Assembly (NCBI GenBank): GCA_020444325.1
Contig: JAHLLD010000011.1
Coordinates: forward strand, 62,001 to 126,000
Origin: a bacterium
GTDB lineage: Bacteria; Bacteroidota; Ignavibacteria; SZUA-365
Length of the DNA: 64,000 bases
Reading direction: 5' to 3'
Shown here: piece after piece, positions 36,552 to 48,825 of the stretch
Position numbering within the stretch: the first letter of the stretch is position 1
How the letters are laid out: each line of letters opens with the position of its first letter
The notes under the pieces: generated by a model
What the model was told of the DNA's origin: nothing
What the model saw: only the letters and a program-made list of their open reading frames with translations
Database searches by the model: none
Position numbers and translations under genes: made by a program

Positions 36552-39500
36552 CTACTCGACCTGAATACGTGCAGTGACATGCATACCAGCCTGCAGAAAT
36601 TGCAGGAAGTAGCTGCCCGTTTCGAGCGCGGAAGGAAGCTGCAGAGACAGATCTTTCAACATCACAGACCCGGGCGGAATACTGCCAGCCAGCACTTCCC
36701 TGCCCAGCACGTCGAACATCCTGTAGCTGCAGCCCGCACCGGGACTCATTGAAATGCGCACATGCAACTGTTCATCGGCCGGCTGCGGATAGACGTTGTG
36801 TATCGCCAGTCTGCCGGGTATCACCGGGACTCCGACCCCCGTGCTGTTCGGTATGACCCGGAGTTCGCAATCTCCGGAAGGAACAGGATCGCACGCAGCG
36901 TTGAGATCCCACGCATCAAAGGAAAATCCTGCAGCGGTCGTGTCTTGCACGTCAATAACCGTGAAGCAAAGCTGCGCAAGTTCATGCGTACTGTAATTCG
37001 GACGAAAGCGTGCCTCCAGGTGAAGCTGTCCCATCGTCGGAGAACCCAGTTCCCACACTTCGATGCCCGCGCCCTGTACATCAACAGAATCGAAATACAT
37101 CACGCTTGTATTGTAGTGCACCTTGAATTCCGCCTCGTAGTTTCGTCCTGCCGAGAGTCCCTCATATCGCAGCGGCAAACGCAACTGCTGTCCGGGATGG
37201 GCTTCCCCGGGACAATCGAAAACGTATGCGGCATTCGGCGGTGTCAGGCTGTCTCCTGCCATGGAATACTGCACCGTGTACGTTGTATCACGGTCGCAGA
37301 TGTCGTTCAGCAGGATATCGACCGTGTGCTCCGTACCCTGCCAGCACGGTGCAATCCACTCCAACCGACCCGGTTCATAGCGGTTGGGATCCCATCTGTA
37401 GCTCGCCAGGAGATGCGAAACTTCCGTTGCATCGAGACTGTTCCCCGCATTTTCGATCACGTAGGCTTCTGCGTTGTTGAGGAGATCCAGCCTGGTATCC
37501 ATGTCCGGAAGATAGCGGGACAATCTCAGATTGTGTTCCCGGCTTTTGTCCTTCAGCGTATCGAGATCATCCTGCATGGCGGAGTACCACCTGTCGGTCA
37601 GAAGGAAAAATAATCGCACGGCTGAGGACCGGGGTGGTGGAATATTGTCCATCGCAGCCAGTGCCGAAACGGGAACGGCGTTACCCGGACGAACCTGCAG
37701 CTTTCGCAGTGCGGCTTCGATTGTGGACACATCCTGCGTGAGTGAGCAGAGCCTTTCAGAAGTATTTGAAAGACTGTATATGGAAAGTGAATCCGTATTG
37801 TTGTCCATTCGTGCATACCAGTCACGAATGATCTCTCGAACCCGTTCCAATCCTTCCTCCCCGATGCTCTCGGTGACGTCAACGGCGAAGTAGGCGTGGA
37901 TAGCGTGCCTCTCCTGCTCAAGAACTGCCGGATCGAAATCACTGAAGTGCACACGCTCACCGTTGTCATGAAGCAGCACCTGCGATGAGTCGAGCGGTAT
38001 GGCTATACCGTCGCAGAAGGGAATGATGGTGAATGCCTGGACCTGGCGTCCGGGGGTCCGGCGATAACTGCCTGCTCCCACATATGCGATGCTCACGGGC
38101 GCTCTCTCGATCCAGACTGTTTTCCGCCGGAATGTAGACAGTGTAGGTGTACCGCAGTCGACTGCATTTGTCCGTGTGACATCTGCGCTGAGATTGACGT
38201 ACTGATGCAGTGCGAGATAGGAAATCCCGAGGCTGTAGCGGATGGCCAGCGTATCCCCAGGCATGATGGTCGCACCCTGAATGGAATCAAGAGGCGTCAG
38301 TCGCGTGACTTCACTTGTATACGGAATGTTGAGTACCATGGCGCCTTCGATGTGCAGACTGACATCGACGAGATTGATCGGGTCAGCAGTTTTCGAATAG
38401 ATACGGCACAGCACATCGGTTTCCGTCTTCGTTTCATGATCCGGGAACGGATACAGTGTCAGCGTATCGATTGTGACGATATCGATCCCGACAAAGTGTG
38501 GTGCGTCACTGCCTTCCGGACAGTCCCCGATGAGCAGGGCGGGGGCATGTCCCTCAGTTGAATACGCCGTTCGCCCCGGACCCTGCGCCCACTGAATGAA
38601 AAAATGCGCCTCCTCCGCAATCTCGAGCTTTCTCCCGCTCACGTCTGGTTGCACGAACAGATGCAATGGGATATGGAGGGAGTCATGGGGTGCGAGAATC
38701 GCGGCAGGCCGGAAAATCCGGAAGTGTGTGCTGTCATCGAACTCAAGATGCCGCTGAAGGGACATCTCCACGACAGGCGTATATACGGTGTCGTCACTCT
38801 CATTGACCAGCGAGAAGACGGGCGTTATGATTTCAGGGATATAAATCCCGAGCGGCTTGTAACGCCAGCTGGTATCCGCCTTCCATATCTCTCCATGGAC
38901 CATGGACCCCGATATCGTTCCGGATCCGGAGATTGTCCCCCACCGCGCTCCACAGATCTCCGCATAGATCAACTGGTAATCAATTGTCCCTGCTTCAAAA
39001 GTCACGACATGGCGCGAGAACAGGCCGAGGCCTTCCACGAACTGGGACGCACCGCTATAGTGATGGTATGACAGAATGGTATTGAGCTGCTTGCGCGTGC
39101 TGCCGTCATCAGATCGCGTGAGCGTATCGACGACCAGTCCATACCCGGAGACATCCCCGATGTTCGCGTTCCCAGCGAGTACGAGCACCTCCCGGTCGGT
39201 GGAGGTATCATAGCTGTACACATCGCTTCCGTCTTCACGGAACCAGCCTGTGAGCGGACCTTCACCTTCGAGCGCATACCAGGTTTTCCCGGCTATGGTC
39301 GTATCATGCGTTACCACGGTCCACACAGTCCTGTCCTGCACGTATTGTTCCGAATGATCGTACTGATAACGGTTCCCAACGCAGAAATTGAAATAGCTGT
39401 GTGCCCGCGTATCCCGATTGTAATTCACGCCTCGAATGCGTGCGGAACTCAGAAGGCAGACGCCGTCACTGGATGTCCAGTATGTATCACCGAAAAGATT

Positions 39501-40478
39501 GGTGATGACCCGGTACTGATCCGCACGCTGCAGCACATAGGCGCGGCACTGTTCACCGAGTACGATCGTATCGAATACGCGCGGTACCTGCCAGATGACA
39601 TTGTTAAGCATGACCTCGGGAGTGGTGGGAATGTATGCGGGATAGAGTTCCAGCGGTTGATTTCGTCTCTGGGTGTCAAACGTACTCAGCACATTCCGCT
39701 CATTGAGGGCCAGGTACCATTCAGACTGAGAGGACGCTGAATTCGGGAAGAGTAGATAAAAGCGGCCACTGTTCGCCCATAATGCCGTCCCTGAATCCGC
39801 GCACTGCAGGATATTCAGGCTCCAGTAAGAGTATTTTTTACGCATCCTATGCACCAGGATGTCCCCTGAGCCTATCGGGACCTCCCACTCGCGAGGATTT
39901 ACAGCGAGCAGTGGATGCAGGTATCCGGTCGTTTCCAGAAGCTGATAGTACCGACCGAAGGATCGTACCTCGAGAATGCCTATGCCGTCGACCAGCACCC
40001 ATTCCTCGCTGCTGCTGCGCTGCAGGGTAACGGATGAACGCAGCACGCCGTTGCAGTCGACGCTGCCGGTATCGCGAATCCACCCGGACGGTATCGTGTC
40101 ACCCACATTCCAGCTGGCAGGAAGCAGCTGCAGCGCTGTGCGCCGCGCCCCTGCACTGTCGCGTAGGAAATACAGTCCGTCCACATCCGTGCGATACCAG
40201 CCATCCATCGGTGAAGATGCTTCATCCCCGAAAAAACCAAACCAGCGATGTCCCAGCGTATCGAGCCAACGCGAGTAGTTGTGTGTGAACGCAGTCCCGA
40301 CGATGTCCGTCTCCCTCTCCATCGCGTAGCGCGGCGCAGTGAGTGTATCGATCGGGAAGGAGATCTGTGATTGCAGCGAGATTGCAGCATTCCCTGCCGC
40401 CTGCTGCGCGTTGACATGTCCTGTCAGGCATGCAGCTGTAAAACAAGAGCTGATAAGCAGCATTGTGAAAATTCGCAT
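36552..40478 (-). CDS. Giant T9SS-exported vWA/cohesin-like surface protein
   Basis: 1308 residues from ATG 40478 (GGAGG five bases upstream). Signal peptide to HVNAQQ. The first ~540 residues match the gene cut at the left edge, with repeated WYR.DVDG/GWFREDGSDVY units. Then come beta domains, an LHDNGERVHFSDFDP segment and a vWA-like domain whose metal site reads DVTES (Asp867), with Thr for the middle Ser. A cohesin-like domain follows (GQQLRLPLRYEGLS, FKVHYNTSVMYFDSV, LAQLCFTVIDV), then a T9SS sorting domain (VYPQPADEQ, DVLGREVLAG, TGSYFLQF). Module order equals that of 22593-25052. Surface adhesion or scaffolding is inferred. Confidence 0.8.
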   Translation of the reverse strand: MRIFTMLLISSCFTAACLTGHVNAQQAAGNAAISLQSQISFPIDTLTAPRYAMERETDIVGTAFTHNYSRWLDTLGHRWFGFFGDEASSPMDGWYRTDVDGLYFLRDSAGARRTALQLLPASWNVGDTIPSGWIRDTGSVDCNGVLRSSVTLQRSSSEEWVLVDGIGILEVRSFGRYYQLLETTGYLHPLLAVNPREWEVPIGSGDILVHRMRKKYSYWSLNILQCADSGTALWANSGRFYLLFPNSASSQSEWYLALNERNVLSTFDTQRRNQPLELYPAYIPTTPEVMLNNVIWQVPRVFDTIVLGEQCRAYVLQRADQYRVITNLFGDTYWTSSDGVCLLSSARIRGVNYNRDTRAHSYFNFCVGNRYQYDHSEQYVQDRTVWTVVTHDTTIAGKTWYALEGEGPLTGWFREDGSDVYSYDTSTDREVLVLAGNANIGDVSGYGLVVDTLTRSDDGSTRKQLNTILSYHHYSGASQFVEGLGLFSRHVVTFEAGTIDYQLIYAEICGARWGTISGSGTISGSMVHGEIWKADTSWRYKPLGIYIPEIITPVFSLVNESDDTVYTPVVEMSLQRHLEFDDSTHFRIFRPAAILAPHDSLHIPLHLFVQPDVSGRKLEIAEEAHFFIQWAQGPGRTAYSTEGHAPALLIGDCPEGSDAPHFVGIDIVTIDTLTLYPFPDHETKTETDVLCRIYSKTADPINLVDVSLHIEGAMVLNIPYTSEVTRLTPLDSIQGATIMPGDTLAIRYSLGISYLALHQYVNLSADVTRTNAVDCGTPTLSTFRRKTVWIERAPVSIAYVGAGSYRRTPGRQVQAFTIIPFCDGIAIPLDSSQVLLHDNGERVHFSDFDPAVLEQERHAIHAYFAVDVTESIGEEGLERVREIIRDWYARMDNNTDSLSIYSLSNTSERLCSLTQDVSTIEAALRKLQVRPGNAVPVSALAAMDNIPPPRSSAVRLFFLLTDRWYSAMQDDLDTLKDKSREHNLRLSRYLPDMDTRLDLLNNAEAYVIENAGNSLDATEVSHLLASYRWDPNRYEPGRLEWIAPCWQGTEHTVDILLNDICDRDTTYTVQYSMAGDSLTPPNAAYVFDCPGEAHPGQQLRLPLRYEGLSAGRNYEAEFKVHYNTSVMYFDSVDVQGAGIEVWELGSPTMGQLHLEARFRPNYSTHELAQLCFTVIDVQDTTAAGFSFDAWDLNAACDPVPSGDCELRVIPNSTGVGVPVIPGRLAIHNVYPQPADEQLHVRISMSPGAGCSYRMFDVLGREVLAGSIPPGSVMLKDLSLQLPSALETGSYFLQFLQAGMHVTARIQVE

Positions 40479-40523
40479 GGGACCCTCCATCAGTATAGAG
40501 CATGCGCCAATGGGCACATAGTT

Positions 40524-42704
40524 TTATTGGAATACTATCGGTTGTGTCTGTACGCGACCGTGTGCGGACAATGAGATGAAATACAGCCCGTGCAGCCTGA
40601 TTCTTGACATGTATGTGTAGAGCGTTGCCTGATGATCTCCCCGTATGCGATCACCATCGAGCAGCACGTACATTTCTTTCCCCGAGGTGTCGTGGAGTGT
40701 GAGACGCACGTGACCGGGCTCATCCAGTTTGAATGGTATAATCGCGTAGTTCGACGCCGGATTGGGAAAGGGCGGACGCAATGTAAAGGACATGGGGAAA
40801 TAACTTGCCGCAAGGGTGGCATCGCTGCGGTACAGTCCGGCAGAGGTCCCAACAAGAAGTCTCCCTTCCCTGTCGAACACACTGGTATACACCTCCTGCA
40901 ACAGGCCGGACTGTTCCACCCCGATGCGCGTCCAGGTGCTGCCGAGGTTCGTTGAAAGCAACAGCGGCCCCCGCCCGCCTGTCATCGCAACGGCTCCAAA
41001 CCAATCCGATACAGCATGCTCATATTCACGCGATGTGAGTCCGGAAATAACCGTGCTCCACTCCCGTCCAGGATACTCCAGCCTGTGCATCCCATCACTA
41101 TCTGTGACAAGCAGGTTGCCCTCGACGCTAACAACAGATCCCGGCCAGTCAAACTCGGCAAACAGCTCCCAACTATCCGCCCCATGCGCGCGATACAGCA
41201 GGGAGTCCCTGCGAAGCACATACATGCCCTTGAAATGGTACGTGATGTCCTTCGCGCTCGCGTACATCGCGTCAGTTTGCCAGGTAATCCCACCATCCGT
41301 CGAGTAATTATTCTCCGTGCTATTCGAATACACATTGAATCGGCCATGGGTAGCGACCCGTGTGGCGGAAAGATGTTCTCTGGTGGGACGTGTCCAGCTG
41401 CTTCCACCATCAAGCGTCAGCTCAGCGTCATAGCTCCAGCCCCATCGCTCATCCATCAATGGTCCCGACAGAGTATATATTGTCATCGAATTCGGTACTT
41501 CCGTCCAGATCAATACCTGTCCCGCCCGAGCGGAGTGACAGTACTGCACGGTGGAAGGAATGGACGTCAGCACTTCCCAGCTGCCGCCGTCATCCGTTGA
41601 AGCATACAGTCCGCCGAACATGGTCCCGGCATACAGCGTCCCAAGACTGTCCGTTTCAATCGCGGTTATTGTGCGGGGCGCTGTGGTCATGGAACAGAGC
41701 TTCCAGCTCGTCCCGTTGTCACGGGAACGGTAGAGTCCTGCCGCCGTTGCTGCGAAAATGCTCCCATCCACACCCAGATGGAAATCCGCAATGCGCGTGC
41801 CCGCCATCAGGGTATCAACCCACGTGCGTCCTGCATCGGTGGAGCGAAAGATTCCTTCGGCCTTTTCGTTGTGTCCCGCCAGAAGAAGTCCATCAGACAG
41901 CACGATCGTTGAGGTAGGACCGTCAACCATGGGTGCCGGACCGAGCTTCTCGAGCACGGCACCCTCCGGGGAGACGCGATACAGTGAGCTTGGGGCACCG
42001 AATTCTGCAGCGGTATCCCTCGCAGCCATAACGACATTGCCGAGTCCATCATGAAACATCGAGGTAAAGGCGGTGATCCCGGGTTGTATCTTGTCCCAGT
42101 TCTTACCATTGTCCGCACTTCGGTAGAGGGTGCGGTAATTGCATGCCAGTGCATTGCCGTCAGGGAAAAACTCCAGCAGATAATCTCCCGAGCAGCACTT
42201 GTCGAACGCAGAGTCGCGCAACACCGTCCATGTTCTGCCATTATCGTCACTGCGATGCAGTCCCCCGCCACCCTCACTGAAGATGGCACTCCCGGTTCTG
42301 TGTACTACCGACCAGCCGTAAGGCATATCCATTTCCTCCTTCTGCTGTTCCCATTGCATCCCCCCATCGCGGGAGATCCAGATACTTCGCCACGAAATAT
42401 ATCCAGTGTAGCTGAATGCGATCAGACTGTTTGCCGGAGTGGCATAGAGAAAGGCTATGTCGCCGGACTGCAGTCCTGTCTTTTCCCAGCTTGCACCCCC
42501 GTTGGTCGATTTCAGGACCCCGTGTCCCACAGTACCTGCAAACAGGGTACCGTTTTCGAATCCTGTGACCGATACAATCTGTTCGCCGGTGGGACCACCC
42601 ACGAACTCGAGTGCGAAGGGACGCAACGGTGATGTCGCCGTTCTGTGCAATGACTGGGCCCAGAGCTGACCCGACACAAGCAGCAGCAATAAAAACAGAC
42701 GCAT
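40524..42704 (-). CDS. T9SS-exported BNR/Ycf48-like beta-propeller protein
   Basis: 726 residues; ATG behind GGGGGGAATCC. Signal peptide to GQLWAQS. Asp-box-like repeats run throughout: LKSTNGGASWEKTG, ISRDGGMQWEQ, HRSDDNGRTWTVL, YRSADNGKNWDKI, FRSTDAGRTWVD, YRSRDNGTSWKLC, YASTDDGGSWEVL and LSTNLGSTWTRI, consistent with two stacked propellers or one large one. The end is a sorting domain (PPFPNPASN, DTSGKEMYV, LHGLYFISL). Extracellular; such propellers bind glycans or proteins. It lies upstream of the giant vWA gene with a 45-base gap, likely on one transcript. Relative of 27045-28877, which lacks the sorting domain. Confidence 0.85.
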   Translation of the reverse strand: MRLFLLLLLVSGQLWAQSLHRTATSPLRPFALEFVGGPTGEQIVSVTGFENGTLFAGTVGHGVLKSTNGGASWEKTGLQSGDIAFLYATPANSLIAFSYTGYISWRSIWISRDGGMQWEQQKEEMDMPYGWSVVHRTGSAIFSEGGGGLHRSDDNGRTWTVLRDSAFDKCCSGDYLLEFFPDGNALACNYRTLYRSADNGKNWDKIQPGITAFTSMFHDGLGNVVMAARDTAAEFGAPSSLYRVSPEGAVLEKLGPAPMVDGPTSTIVLSDGLLLAGHNEKAEGIFRSTDAGRTWVDTLMAGTRIADFHLGVDGSIFAATAAGLYRSRDNGTSWKLCSMTTAPRTITAIETDSLGTLYAGTMFGGLYASTDDGGSWEVLTSIPSTVQYCHSARAGQVLIWTEVPNSMTIYTLSGPLMDERWGWSYDAELTLDGGSSWTRPTREHLSATRVATHGRFNVYSNSTENNYSTDGGITWQTDAMYASAKDITYHFKGMYVLRRDSLLYRAHGADSWELFAEFDWPGSVVSVEGNLLVTDSDGMHRLEYPGREWSTVISGLTSREYEHAVSDWFGAVAMTGGRGPLLLSTNLGSTWTRIGVEQSGLLQEVYTSVFDREGRLLVGTSAGLYRSDATLAASYFPMSFTLRPPFPNPASNYAIIPFKLDEPGHVRLTLHDTSGKEMYVLLDGDRIRGDHQATLYTYMSRIRLHGLYFISLSAHGRVQTQPIVFQ

Positions 42705-44230: not shown

Positions 44231-44653
44231 ATGCAGCGTTTTGCATCAGCCCAGTGGCAGGGAGCACTTAAGGACGGCAAGGGAACCATGACAACAGGCA
44301 GCGGCGTCCTGACAGACATCGCCTATGATTTCGGCAAGCGTTTTGCCGACGAACCCGGTACCAATCCGGAAGAACTGATCGCCGCCGCGCATTCGGGCTG
44401 CTTCTCGATGGCACTCGCCAACATTCTCGACGGCGACGGCTTCCCGCCGCAAAGCGTTGAGACCAAGGCTACCATGGATTTTGAAAAGACCGATGCCGGT
44501 TTCACCATCACAAAAATTCATCTCGATACCGTGGTGAAGGCGGAAGGCCTGACTGAAGCCGCCCTGCAGGACTGTGCCGGCAAGGCCAAGGCCGGCTGCC
44601 CCGTCAGTCGCGCTCTGACCGCGGAGATCACCTTCACGGCCAAACTCGGCTGA
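44231..44653 (+). CDS. osmC: OsmC-family peroxiredoxin
   Basis: 140 residues, normal for OsmC. GAGGAA lies upstream of the ATG. The two redox cysteines are present: Cys57 in HSGCFSMAL and Cys123 in AGCPVSRAL. The N-terminus (FASAQWQGALKDGKGTMTTGSG, in part) is that of OsmC rather than Ohr. The family reduces organic hydroperoxides with thiol or lipoyl donors; in a bacillithiol-making cell (bshA is at 59168) that thiol may be relevant, which is inference. Cytoplasmic dimer by family. Followed by a strong terminator. Confidence 0.9.
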   Translation: MQRFASAQWQGALKDGKGTMTTGSGVLTDIAYDFGKRFADEPGTNPEELIAAAHSGCFSMALANILDGDGFPPQSVETKATMDFEKTDAGFTITKIHLDTVVKAEGLTEAALQDCAGKAKAGCPVSRALTAEITFTAKLG

Positions 44654-44767: not shown

Positions 44768-46993
44768 ATGGGAAACCATGACATGACGCAGAGCGAGGCA
44801 GAAGCGATGAAGGAAGCGCACAAACTCGATAAAATCGCCATCACGGTAAAATCCCACCGTTTGCTCAAACAGCTTCTCCAGGAAAATCCCGTCCTGGAAG
44901 AAATCATGCGCAACTCGAAAAATGAGACGGAAGCGCTGGTGGGTGTGCAGCAATGGGTGCTGGAGGAGTTGCGTAAAAATCCCGATGCATACGCCTATTA
45001 TTCGCAGGAGCACGCGGGACGCGAGCTGTTCGAACGGCTGCAGTGGAAAGACTACGCGGCGATTCGGCTGCTCGATTATATCGACAATGCGGGACGAGAA
45101 TTCCCGGACCACAATCTCCGAGGAGAGATCGCGGTCAGTAATCCCATCAAACTGCTCTGGCTTGCGGTCAACAAGGGTACGGGCGGAGCCAAACCCTACT
45201 TCTTTGAGGACATGCTGCAGCTGTTCCGGCAGCTGACCGGTGCGACCACGGTGCATCCGCCCGACGATGAACAGGTACGGACGTGGATGGACCGCTATCC
45301 CACGGGAACGGACCCCCGCATCATCAAGCTGCGCGAGGAGAACCGCGAGCGCATCATCAACCTGCTGATCGACCTGATTGACAGCGGGGAGATGTCGAGC
45401 AACAAATACAAGTTCACCGAAGGGATGTCACGGGAACAGAAATTCCTTCAGATGCTGCGCTGGTGGAACGAGCATACCTTCCATCTACATTTCGCCGTCC
45501 GCTCTCCTGACCTGCTCAACCGCATGCTCGGAGAATCCCTCGACCCAGATACCATGAAAATCCTCCACGCCGCGGAGGAACAGGGCATTCCCTTTTTCGT
45601 CAACCCGTATTACCTCTCCCTTCTCCACGTGCGGGTGCCGTACTTCGCCATCGGCGCCGATCTCGCCATCCGGCACTATGTCGTGTACAGCCAGCAGCTG
45701 GTCGACGAGTTCGGGCATATCGTGGCATGGGAGAAGGAAGACAAAGTGCGTCCGGGTGAGCCCAACGCTGCGGGCTGGCTCCTGCCGTCGGAGAAGAATG
45801 TGCATCGCCGCTACCCCGAGGTCGCGATTCTGATTCCTGATACGGTGGGACGCGCATGCGGGGGACTCTGTTCATCCTGTCAGCGCATGTACGATTTCCA
45901 GAGCGGACATCTGAACTTCAATCTCGACCGTCTGCGTCCCGACGAAACCTGGTCCGAGCGCCTGAAGCGGCTGATGGACTATTTCGAAAACGACACGCAG
46001 CTGCGCGACATCCTGATTACCGGCGGCGATGCACTGATGAGCACCGACCGCTCTCTGGGGCACATCCTCGACAGCATTTACGATATGGCGCTGCGCAAGC
46101 GCGAAGCAAACAAGGAACGTCCCGACGGAGAAAAATACGCCGAGCTCCTGCGCGTACGCCTTGGCTCGCGCCTGCCTGCCTATCTCCCCCAGCGCATCAC
46201 ACCCGAGCTGACTGCAATGCTGGCAGCGTTTCGTGAGAAAGCCGCTGCCATTGGTGTGCGGCAGTTCGTCGTGCAGACCCACATCGAATCGCCCATGGAG
46301 ATCACGCCGGAAACACGGGAGGCCGTCCGCCGATTGCTCGACGCCGGCTGGGTGGTCACGAATCAGCTGGTCTTTACCGCAGCCGCATCACGAAGGGGAC
46401 ACACCGCGCGACTGCGGGAAGCGCTCAACGATATCGGTGTGCTCACCTACTACACTTTCACGGTGAAGGGGTACATGGAAAACAATTTCAATTTCGCCCC
46501 GAATGCGCGTGCCGTGCAGGAGGAACTCGAGGAAAAACGCCTCGGTGTGATTCCGGAAACTTATCATGATCGCGTCCGCAGTTTCGCGGATGACGGCATG
46601 CATATGACGGAGAATATTGACGCCCTGCGGCGGGAAGCCGGACTCCCCTTCCTCGCAACGGATCGCAACGTGCTCAACCTCCCCGGTGTCGGAAAAAGTC
46701 TCACCTACCGCGTTATCGGCATTACACGGTATGGCCGCCGCATCCTGGCCTTCGACCACGACGCGACACGAAATCATAGTCCCATCATTCACAAAATGGG
46801 AAAAGTCATCATCATCGAATCGAAATCCATCAGCGAATACCTGCAGCAGCTGGCGGACATTGGTGAGGACAGGGACGAATACGCCGATTTGTTCGGATAC
46901 TCCATCGGTGAAACGGAACCACGCATGAATATTTTCGAGTATCCGGAATTCGACTTCGCGATTTCCGAAGAGTACTCAAATCTGGAAGTGTAA
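44768..46993 (+). CDS. Long KamA-type radical SAM protein (aminomutase-like)
   Basis: 741 residues from ATG 44768; ATG 44783 is an alternative and neither has a clear ribosome site. The radical-SAM cluster motif is CxxxCxxC (Cys364, 368, 371, in RACGGLCSSC), followed by DILITGGDALM, the conserved GGD strand. VQTHIESPMEITPE and NQLVFTAAASRRGHT are lysine-2,3-aminomutase-like. The PLP lysine is Lys643 in NLPGVGKS (PGGGGK in the enzyme). The N-terminal ~330 residues are an added helical region. Where lysine 2,3-aminomutase has Asp before the PLP loop, this has Asn, so lysine may not be its substrate. Cytoplasmic. Single gene between two terminators. Confidence 0.8.
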   Translation: MGNHDMTQSEAEAMKEAHKLDKIAITVKSHRLLKQLLQENPVLEEIMRNSKNETEALVGVQQWVLEELRKNPDAYAYYSQEHAGRELFERLQWKDYAAIRLLDYIDNAGREFPDHNLRGEIAVSNPIKLLWLAVNKGTGGAKPYFFEDMLQLFRQLTGATTVHPPDDEQVRTWMDRYPTGTDPRIIKLREENRERIINLLIDLIDSGEMSSNKYKFTEGMSREQKFLQMLRWWNEHTFHLHFAVRSPDLLNRMLGESLDPDTMKILHAAEEQGIPFFVNPYYLSLLHVRVPYFAIGADLAIRHYVVYSQQLVDEFGHIVAWEKEDKVRPGEPNAAGWLLPSEKNVHRRYPEVAILIPDTVGRACGGLCSSCQRMYDFQSGHLNFNLDRLRPDETWSERLKRLMDYFENDTQLRDILITGGDALMSTDRSLGHILDSIYDMALRKREANKERPDGEKYAELLRVRLGSRLPAYLPQRITPELTAMLAAFREKAAAIGVRQFVVQTHIESPMEITPETREAVRRLLDAGWVVTNQLVFTAAASRRGHTARLREALNDIGVLTYYTFTVKGYMENNFNFAPNARAVQEELEEKRLGVIPETYHDRVRSFADDGMHMTENIDALRREAGLPFLATDRNVLNLPGVGKSLTYRVIGITRYGRRILAFDHDATRNHSPIIHKMGKVIIIESKSISEYLQQLADIGEDRDEYADLFGYSIGETEPRMNIFEYPEFDFAISEEYSNLEV

Positions 46994-48702: not shown

Positions 48703-48762
48703 TGCGCATTCCGAGTAATCCTTGCGCATTCCGAGTAATCCTTGCGCATTCCGAGTAATCCT
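48703..48762. repeat. Three tandem 20-bp repeats
   Basis: The unit TGCGCATTCCGAGTAATCCT occurs three times head to tail without a mismatch, in the promoter region between two divergent lipoprotein genes. The spacing, close to two helix turns, would place bound proteins on one DNA face. Confidence 0.9.
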
Positions 48763-48825
48763 TCTCATGCGGTCTGCCTGCGCTTCCGTATATTGAGGTA
48801 CATGACCTCAACGAATGGGAATCGC

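Follow-up and report, generated by a model that had tools for sequence, protein, structure and literature searches.

A deep family of long KamA-type proteins whose substrate pocket resembles that of glutamate 2,3-aminomutase

Introduction

Which substrate is used by a long KamA-like enzyme that keeps the catalytic residues of lysine 2,3-aminomutase (LAM) and has other residues where LAM holds the side chain of lysine? This question is raised by a gene in the window, that is, the whole stretch of 64,000 nucleotides of Ignavibacteria DNA analysed here. The product is best read, from its sequence, as a radical-SAM, PLP-dependent 2,3-aminomutase, and we lean towards L-glutamate as the most likely substrate, to be converted to β-glutamate (3-aminoglutarate); that the substrate has an acidic or amide side chain is likely. 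We infer the substrate, the direction of the reaction and a role of the product as compatible solute; the contact with the side-chain carboxylate is supported by a Lys/Asn pair in the sequence, and the cluster, the PLP lysine and the fold are supported by sequence and model. On the best reading the mutase is self-sufficient and works alone.

β-Glutamate is a compound that some microbes use against salt stress. If the reading is true, a single pair of residues is enough to assign a likely function to proteins which NCBI still names 'KamA family protein', and with a tractable bacterial enzyme one could test directly which organisms make β-glutamate in anoxic habitats and among the Bacteroidales of the gut. 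In Nitrosopumilus maritimus, β-glutamate is the top identified metabolite by abundance, at 730 mM, according to the available part of one paper (PMC8269262). The family has no name, branches deeply and occurs widely, and its proposed chemistry is already known; no paper on the long family was found in the literature searched, which excluded most subscription journals.

The gene and its parts

The stretch 44768-46993 (+) is a real open frame of 741 residues plus a stop codon, so that the long KamA-like gene proposed there by the initial annotation is borne out by 741 codons and by the motifs present. Conservation in the ortholog alignment begins at Met14, the first column shared by all 11 rows, and for this reason translation probably starts at this residue. 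The parts of the gene are the following.

44768..46993, + strand: long KamA-like gene, product of 741 aa; probable start at 44807 (Met14)
44807..45442, + strand: added N-terminal region, mostly helical in the AlphaFold2 model, residues 14-225; LAM match from about residue 190
45449..45802, + strand: segment matching LAM's own N-terminal region in alignments, residues 228-345
45857..45880, + strand: CxxxCxxC cluster motif CGGLCSSC, residues 364-371; the three Cys identical in 80/80 (best 80 of at least 547)
45884..45886, + strand: Arg373, counterpart of LAM Arg134 by conservation and multiple alignment
46388..46396, + strand: SRR motif, residues 541-543, found by alignment in the long families only among the KamA proteins aligned
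46466..46468, + strand: Lys567, in the LAM Asp293 column by profile bridge, multiple alignment and conservation
46676..46678, + strand: Asn637, in the LAM Asp330 column by multiple alignment, motif and conservation
46694..46696, + strand: Lys643, the PLP lysine (LAM Lys337) by motif, multiple alignment and conservation

A scan of prokaryote genomes gave at least 547 stretches which encode a relative of the window protein. In the best 80 of these, C364, C368, C371, R373, K567, N637 and K643 are identical in 80/80, a degree of conservation that chance does not explain, and the earlier statement that the cluster cysteines and the PLP lysine are intact holds (CGGLCSSC from residue 364, NLPGVGK from residue 637).

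Profile scores and membership

The protein belongs to the PLP-dependent radical SAM aminomutases (KamA-type superfamily) by its CxxxCxxC motif, its PLP lysine and its predicted LAM fold. Pfam gave only a sub-threshold radical-SAM match on the 741-aa protein, which reaches no NCBIfam cut-off either: the scores are 140.5 bits for TIGR00238 (KamA family, the highest NCBIfam score; cut-off, 199.2), 96.7 bits for TIGR04368 (glutamate 2,3-aminomutase, EAM; 650), 88 bits for TIGR03820 (LAM; 525.4), 80.3 bits for TIGR04468 (arginine 2,3-aminomutase; 600), 61.1 bits for TIGR03821 (EpmB; 369.3) and 41.9 bits for an AblA-like model (396.25). EAM is therefore the second-ranked NCBIfam model and the best-scoring substrate-specific profile. 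Its model has 404 positions against 741 residues here, the window protein having the extra N-terminal region.

In all four of the long cores scanned, the EAM profile scores above the LAM, arginine-mutase and EpmB profiles (EAM/LAM bits: 96.4/89.6, 217.8/182.2, 209.4/180.7 and 107.6/101.7), and TIGR00238 is the top score of all models; in 3/3 controls the LAM profile scores above the EAM profile. For the window protein the EAM-over-LAM margin is small and the EAM match stops before Asn637. Since the TIGR04368 cut-off was tried and not reached, the protein is not filed as an EAM member here and is called a variant that would work like EAM.

Fold and N-terminal region

An AlphaFold2 model of the window protein was built with 74 sequences (pLDDT, 83.5; pTM, 0.88), with low confidence in the cofactor loops, including residues 361-384, 568-571 and 638-642. 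Foldseek matches the model to the LAM structure 2A5H with an E value of 5.5e-13, and VIA-align superposes the two with a Z score of 28.1 and an rmsd of 2.9 over 324 residues in the model range 190-675, the runner-up entry having a Z score of 11.6. In addition, a profile search of PDB sequences gave 2A5H as the sole match. The modelled fold of the window protein is thus that of LAM.

The initial annotation claimed an added N-terminal region of about 330 residues, which is too long. The superposition on LAM begins at about residue 190, and the WW...NPYYLSLL stretch (residues ~233-288) aligns with LAM's own N-terminal segment, weakly when compared directly, and the same pairing is recovered through a second long family of KamA proteins; the added part is therefore about 190-225 residues. 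When folded alone with AlphaFold2, residues 1-225 are mostly helical (pLDDT, 82.1), and this part has no Foldseek match among solved folds at E ≤ 0.001 and a best VIA-align Z score of 4.5.

LAM (KamA/AblA; TIGR03820; 2A5H) and the window protein have in common the fold, CxxxCxxC and the counterparts of Arg134 and of the PLP lysine, whereas the SRR motif and the N-terminal region are additional in the window protein, which also has Val352 in place of the second arginine of the HRYPDR motif of LAM. This lost arginine, together with a deep branch and scores under every NCBIfam cut-off, could be taken as a sign of a PLP-dependent radical-SAM enzyme that catalyses a different reaction, such as deamination or epimerisation, or of a regulator without turnover. 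That is quite improbable, however, because the protein has the LAM fold and because the cluster cysteines and the PLP lysine are identical in 80/80 of the best 80 of at least 547 relatives.

The substrate pocket

We take Asp293 and Asp330 of LAM to hold the side-chain amine of lysine (in the Acetoanaerobium LAM, L121, their counterparts are numbered one less). Both are replaced in the window protein, Asp293 by Lys567 and Asp330 by Asn637. The initial annotation had seen the asparagine before the PLP loop (NLPGVGK), which indeed falls in the Asp330 column by multiple alignment and motif, and had missed the second replaced position; an Asp at both pocket positions, which would speak against its proposal, is found at neither, in the alignment or in the 80 relatives.

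The two columns are placed by different routes. When the profile of the window family is aligned directly with LAM, the match stops at residue 566, just short of Lys567. In the second long family, Lys538 pairs with the LAM Asp293 column (Asp339 of L119) in a profile alignment, and Lys538, Asn576 and Lys582 of that family pair with Lys567, Asn637 and Lys643 of the window family. The assignment of Lys567 to the Asp293 column follows from this bridge and from the ungapped continuation of the alignment. Asn637 is reached by none of the profile-profile alignments with LAM, and its place in the Asp330 column comes from one multiple alignment (NLPG-GK under DAPGGGGK) and the motif.

In an alignment of 31 proteins, Lys and Asn occupy the two columns in 16/16 long proteins (12 of the window family and four of the second). 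The 14 other readable KamA proteins have 12 Asp and two Arg, and no Lys, in the first column, and ten Asp, one Thr, one Glu and two Ser, and no Asn, in the second; a broken Bacillus subtilis copy with three stops (L132) entered neither the residue counts nor the tree. The SRR motif (541-543) is likewise common to the long proteins, and no other KamA protein in the alignment has it.

The same pair is known from EAM. In the part of the SFLD paper available (PMC3965090), EAM is described as having the LAM Asp residues replaced by Lys and Asn, conserved family-wide and associated with glutamate binding, and unannotated clusters within the same subgroup are pointed out. The window protein thus resembles EAM in the only trait that is known to determine the substrate, namely Lys and Asn at the same two columns (the Asn column being placed here from a multiple alignment and the motif), and the presence of this pair is why the enzyme probably makes β-glutamate. 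An asparagine at this site in EAM had been named in the initial annotation; it agrees with this paper and with TIGR04368, which favours both residues. When a 173-residue LAM fragment was scored with TIGR04368 after exchange of residues at both columns, the score rose from 257.2 bits (unchanged) to 259.8 with Lys in the first column, 259.9 with Asn in the second and 262.4 with both, while the controls (Ala, Arg or Asn in the first; Ala, Gln or Lys in the second) gave 256.5-258.3 bits. The gains are small, 2.6-2.7 bits each. The LAM profile score of the fragment fell from 347.7 to 341.1 with both swaps and by 2.9 to 4.2 with every single change, and since any change there lowers it, the specific effect is the rise in the EAM score alone.

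The Lys/Asn pair indicates a carboxylate or an amide and not a chain length, so that a 2,3-aminomutase for another such amino acid (aspartate, glutamine or 2-aminoadipate) deserves some weight. With aspartate the shift would return aspartate, possibly inverted, and the enzyme would be a radical racemase. These substrates are nevertheless rather unlikely, because the published Lys/Asn enzyme described in the available part of PMC3965090 acts on glutamate.

A mutase for a basic amino acid would have to bind the side-chain amine elsewhere, for example at Glu571, which lies four residues past Lys567, is identical in 80/80 of the best 80 of at least 547 matches and has a Glu at the matching place in the second long family. 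Moreover, arginine 2,3-aminomutase and EpmB, which have the KamA core and the cluster motif as in the window protein, keep Asp at the Asp293 column and have Thr and Glu, respectively, at the Asp330 column, so the latter column can vary while the substrate, as in the arginine mutase, is still basic. An invariant Lys in the Asp293 column, however, should repel an amine, and the lysine role is already taken by a true LAM in the window's own genome (L119; 785.8 bits; cut-off, 525.4), which makes a basic substrate improbable.

Several points stand against glutamate as well: the low EAM score, the higher score of TIGR00238, the direct profile alignment that stops before both pocket positions, the small swap gains, the low confidence of the cofactor loops in the model, the invariant Glu571 and Val352.

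Proposed mechanism

If the window protein acts as a glutamate 2,3-aminomutase, its mechanism may be drawn from that of LAM. The cluster on C364, C368 and C371 would cleave SAM to give the 5'-deoxyadenosyl radical, and the substrate would be held as an imine of PLP, which is displaced from Lys643. The α-carboxylate of the substrate would lie on Arg373, whose LAM counterpart, Arg134, presumably binds the free α-carboxylate, and Lys567 and Asn637 would hold the side-chain carboxylate, at the positions of the two Asp that bind the amine in LAM. The radical would then abstract hydrogen from C3, and the amino group would shift from C2 to C3.

Distribution and phylogeny

Among 61 related genomes, a set that includes the window's own, 11 carry a full-length member (62-100% identity). 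Of 296 genomes sampled from the phylum, eight have a match at E ≤ 1e-30, six to the window family and two to the second long family. The best 80 of at least 547 loci are 66-88% identical to the window protein, and their record titles include Ignavibacteria, Bacteroidales, Aminicenantes, Myxococcota, Planctomycetota, Nitrospinia, Gemmatimonadota and Chrysiogenales; they are mostly metagenome bins, whose titles can be wrong, with the isolates Perlabentimonas, Sunxiuqinia, Marinilabilia and Carboxylicivirga among them. The multiple alignment of relatives holds 73 of the 80 loci; L067 and L099, in which a stop codon precedes the conserved start, were excluded from it and included in the 80/80 counts. 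Furthermore, a plasmid collection has records of Bacteroides, Parabacteroides and Phocaeicola with copies 52-54% identical to the window protein, two of them annotated as 'KamA family protein' and the third record unannotated. No EAM-named protein occurs among the 60 listed of 138 rows from this collection, and 198 genomes from the phylum yielded no EAM sequence above the cut-off, which no control genome passed either.

The second long family (L037, 646-2598; L038; L012; L013; about 650 aa) shares with the window family the Lys/Asn pair, the SRR motif and homology along nearly the whole length. It differs in being shorter, in having no insert at ~590-625, in its CAQICVYC motif and in passing TIGR00238 (346.5 bits), unlike the window protein. 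A core tree of 30 proteins, with no EAM among them, separates the two long families from the rest with a UFBoot value of 100, and they thus appear to be a single clade, distinct from LAM, arginine mutase and EpmB. It is a tentative and rather doubtful proposal that this clade is a deep, unnamed EAM clade of many phyla of anaerobes (sediments, seeps, soda lakes and guts), possibly independent of the clostridial EAM in origin, and a main bacterial source of β-glutamate in anoxic habitats.

Carriage by phages was considered and rejected: in 12/12 viral loci that encode LAM relatives the Asp293 column holds Asp (the second motif being readable in 10/12), and two scans of viral sequences gave no relative of the long families.

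Genomic context

Apart from the gene itself, no gene family recurs in more than seven of the best 80 of at least 547 loci, by a count based on crude gene calling and on flanks of at most 6 kb, often cut by contig ends. Same-strand neighbours within 150 bases were found upstream in 27/71 and downstream in 13/62 cases (73 of the 80 loci were parsed, the gene being unrecognised by the filter in the other seven). An operon partner or a link to OsmC was rejected on the same count; the gene directly upstream in the window (44231-44653, +) encodes an OsmC-family peroxiredoxin (175.7 bits; cut-off, 85.8). The absence of a constant neighbour is what is expected for a product made by one enzyme.

It also bears on the idea that the enzyme acts on a residue in a protein or peptide, with the N-terminal helical region as its partner-binding part. 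EpmB is a known protein-directed relative, so such an activity has a precedent, and the ~190-225 extra residues would give room for a partner. This idea is very improbable, however, because Arg373 is kept in 80/80 of the best 80 of at least 547 relatives, no partner gene recurs and only one of the KamA-type profiles scored lower than EpmB. Accordingly, when the initial annotation guessed at a different amino acid or a protein residue, only the former gained ground, through the acidic side chain backed by the Lys/Asn pair.

As for salt stress and the glutamate reading, eam genes are sometimes found with Na+ riboswitches, according to the available part of PMC9337991. No osmotic riboswitch was found in the window or in the 25 of the 80 loci scanned, which gave two tRNAs only, and ectoine synthase matched in 0/61 genomes, with no match in a control genome either. 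A link to ablB was tried and rejected: the long gene occurs in 11/61 genomes and ablB in 8/61, with six in common, and since all six belong to one taxonomic family the overlap is unusable. The lack of a riboswitch upstream, the gut carriers and the uninformative ablB overlap are further points against the glutamate reading.

Other observations

The LAM of the window's own genome stands in a row with a symporter-like gene and AblB (L119:308-4114, contig C2). The symporter-like gene scores 163 bits on TIGR00813, below the cut-off of 184, and the AblB acetyltransferase scores 312.3 bits (cut-off, 205.1); from the known pathway of LAM and AblB, this is an N-acetyl-β-lysine locus. A third KamA-type protein of the same genome (L120:2643-4073, contig C8) has 477 aa, the motif CHSYCTFC and Arg in the Asp293 column, and is under all NCBIfam cut-offs. 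In addition, a short KamA protein is encoded on a conjugative plasmid of Thioflavicoccus mobilis (L125:3875-9032), where the neighbours are annotated as ATP-grasp ligase, ornithine cyclodeaminase, SbnA-like protein and diaminobutyrate transaminase, possibly a natural-product cluster.

Elsewhere in the window, two large secreted-looking proteins of 1321 and 726 aa are encoded in a row at 36552-42704 (-); their C-terminal ends resemble type IX sorting tails by eye, and the first, of 1321 aa, has no Pfam match at E 1e-5. Moreover, a 20-base unit occurs in three perfect tandem copies, head to tail, at 48703-48763, just outside two genes.
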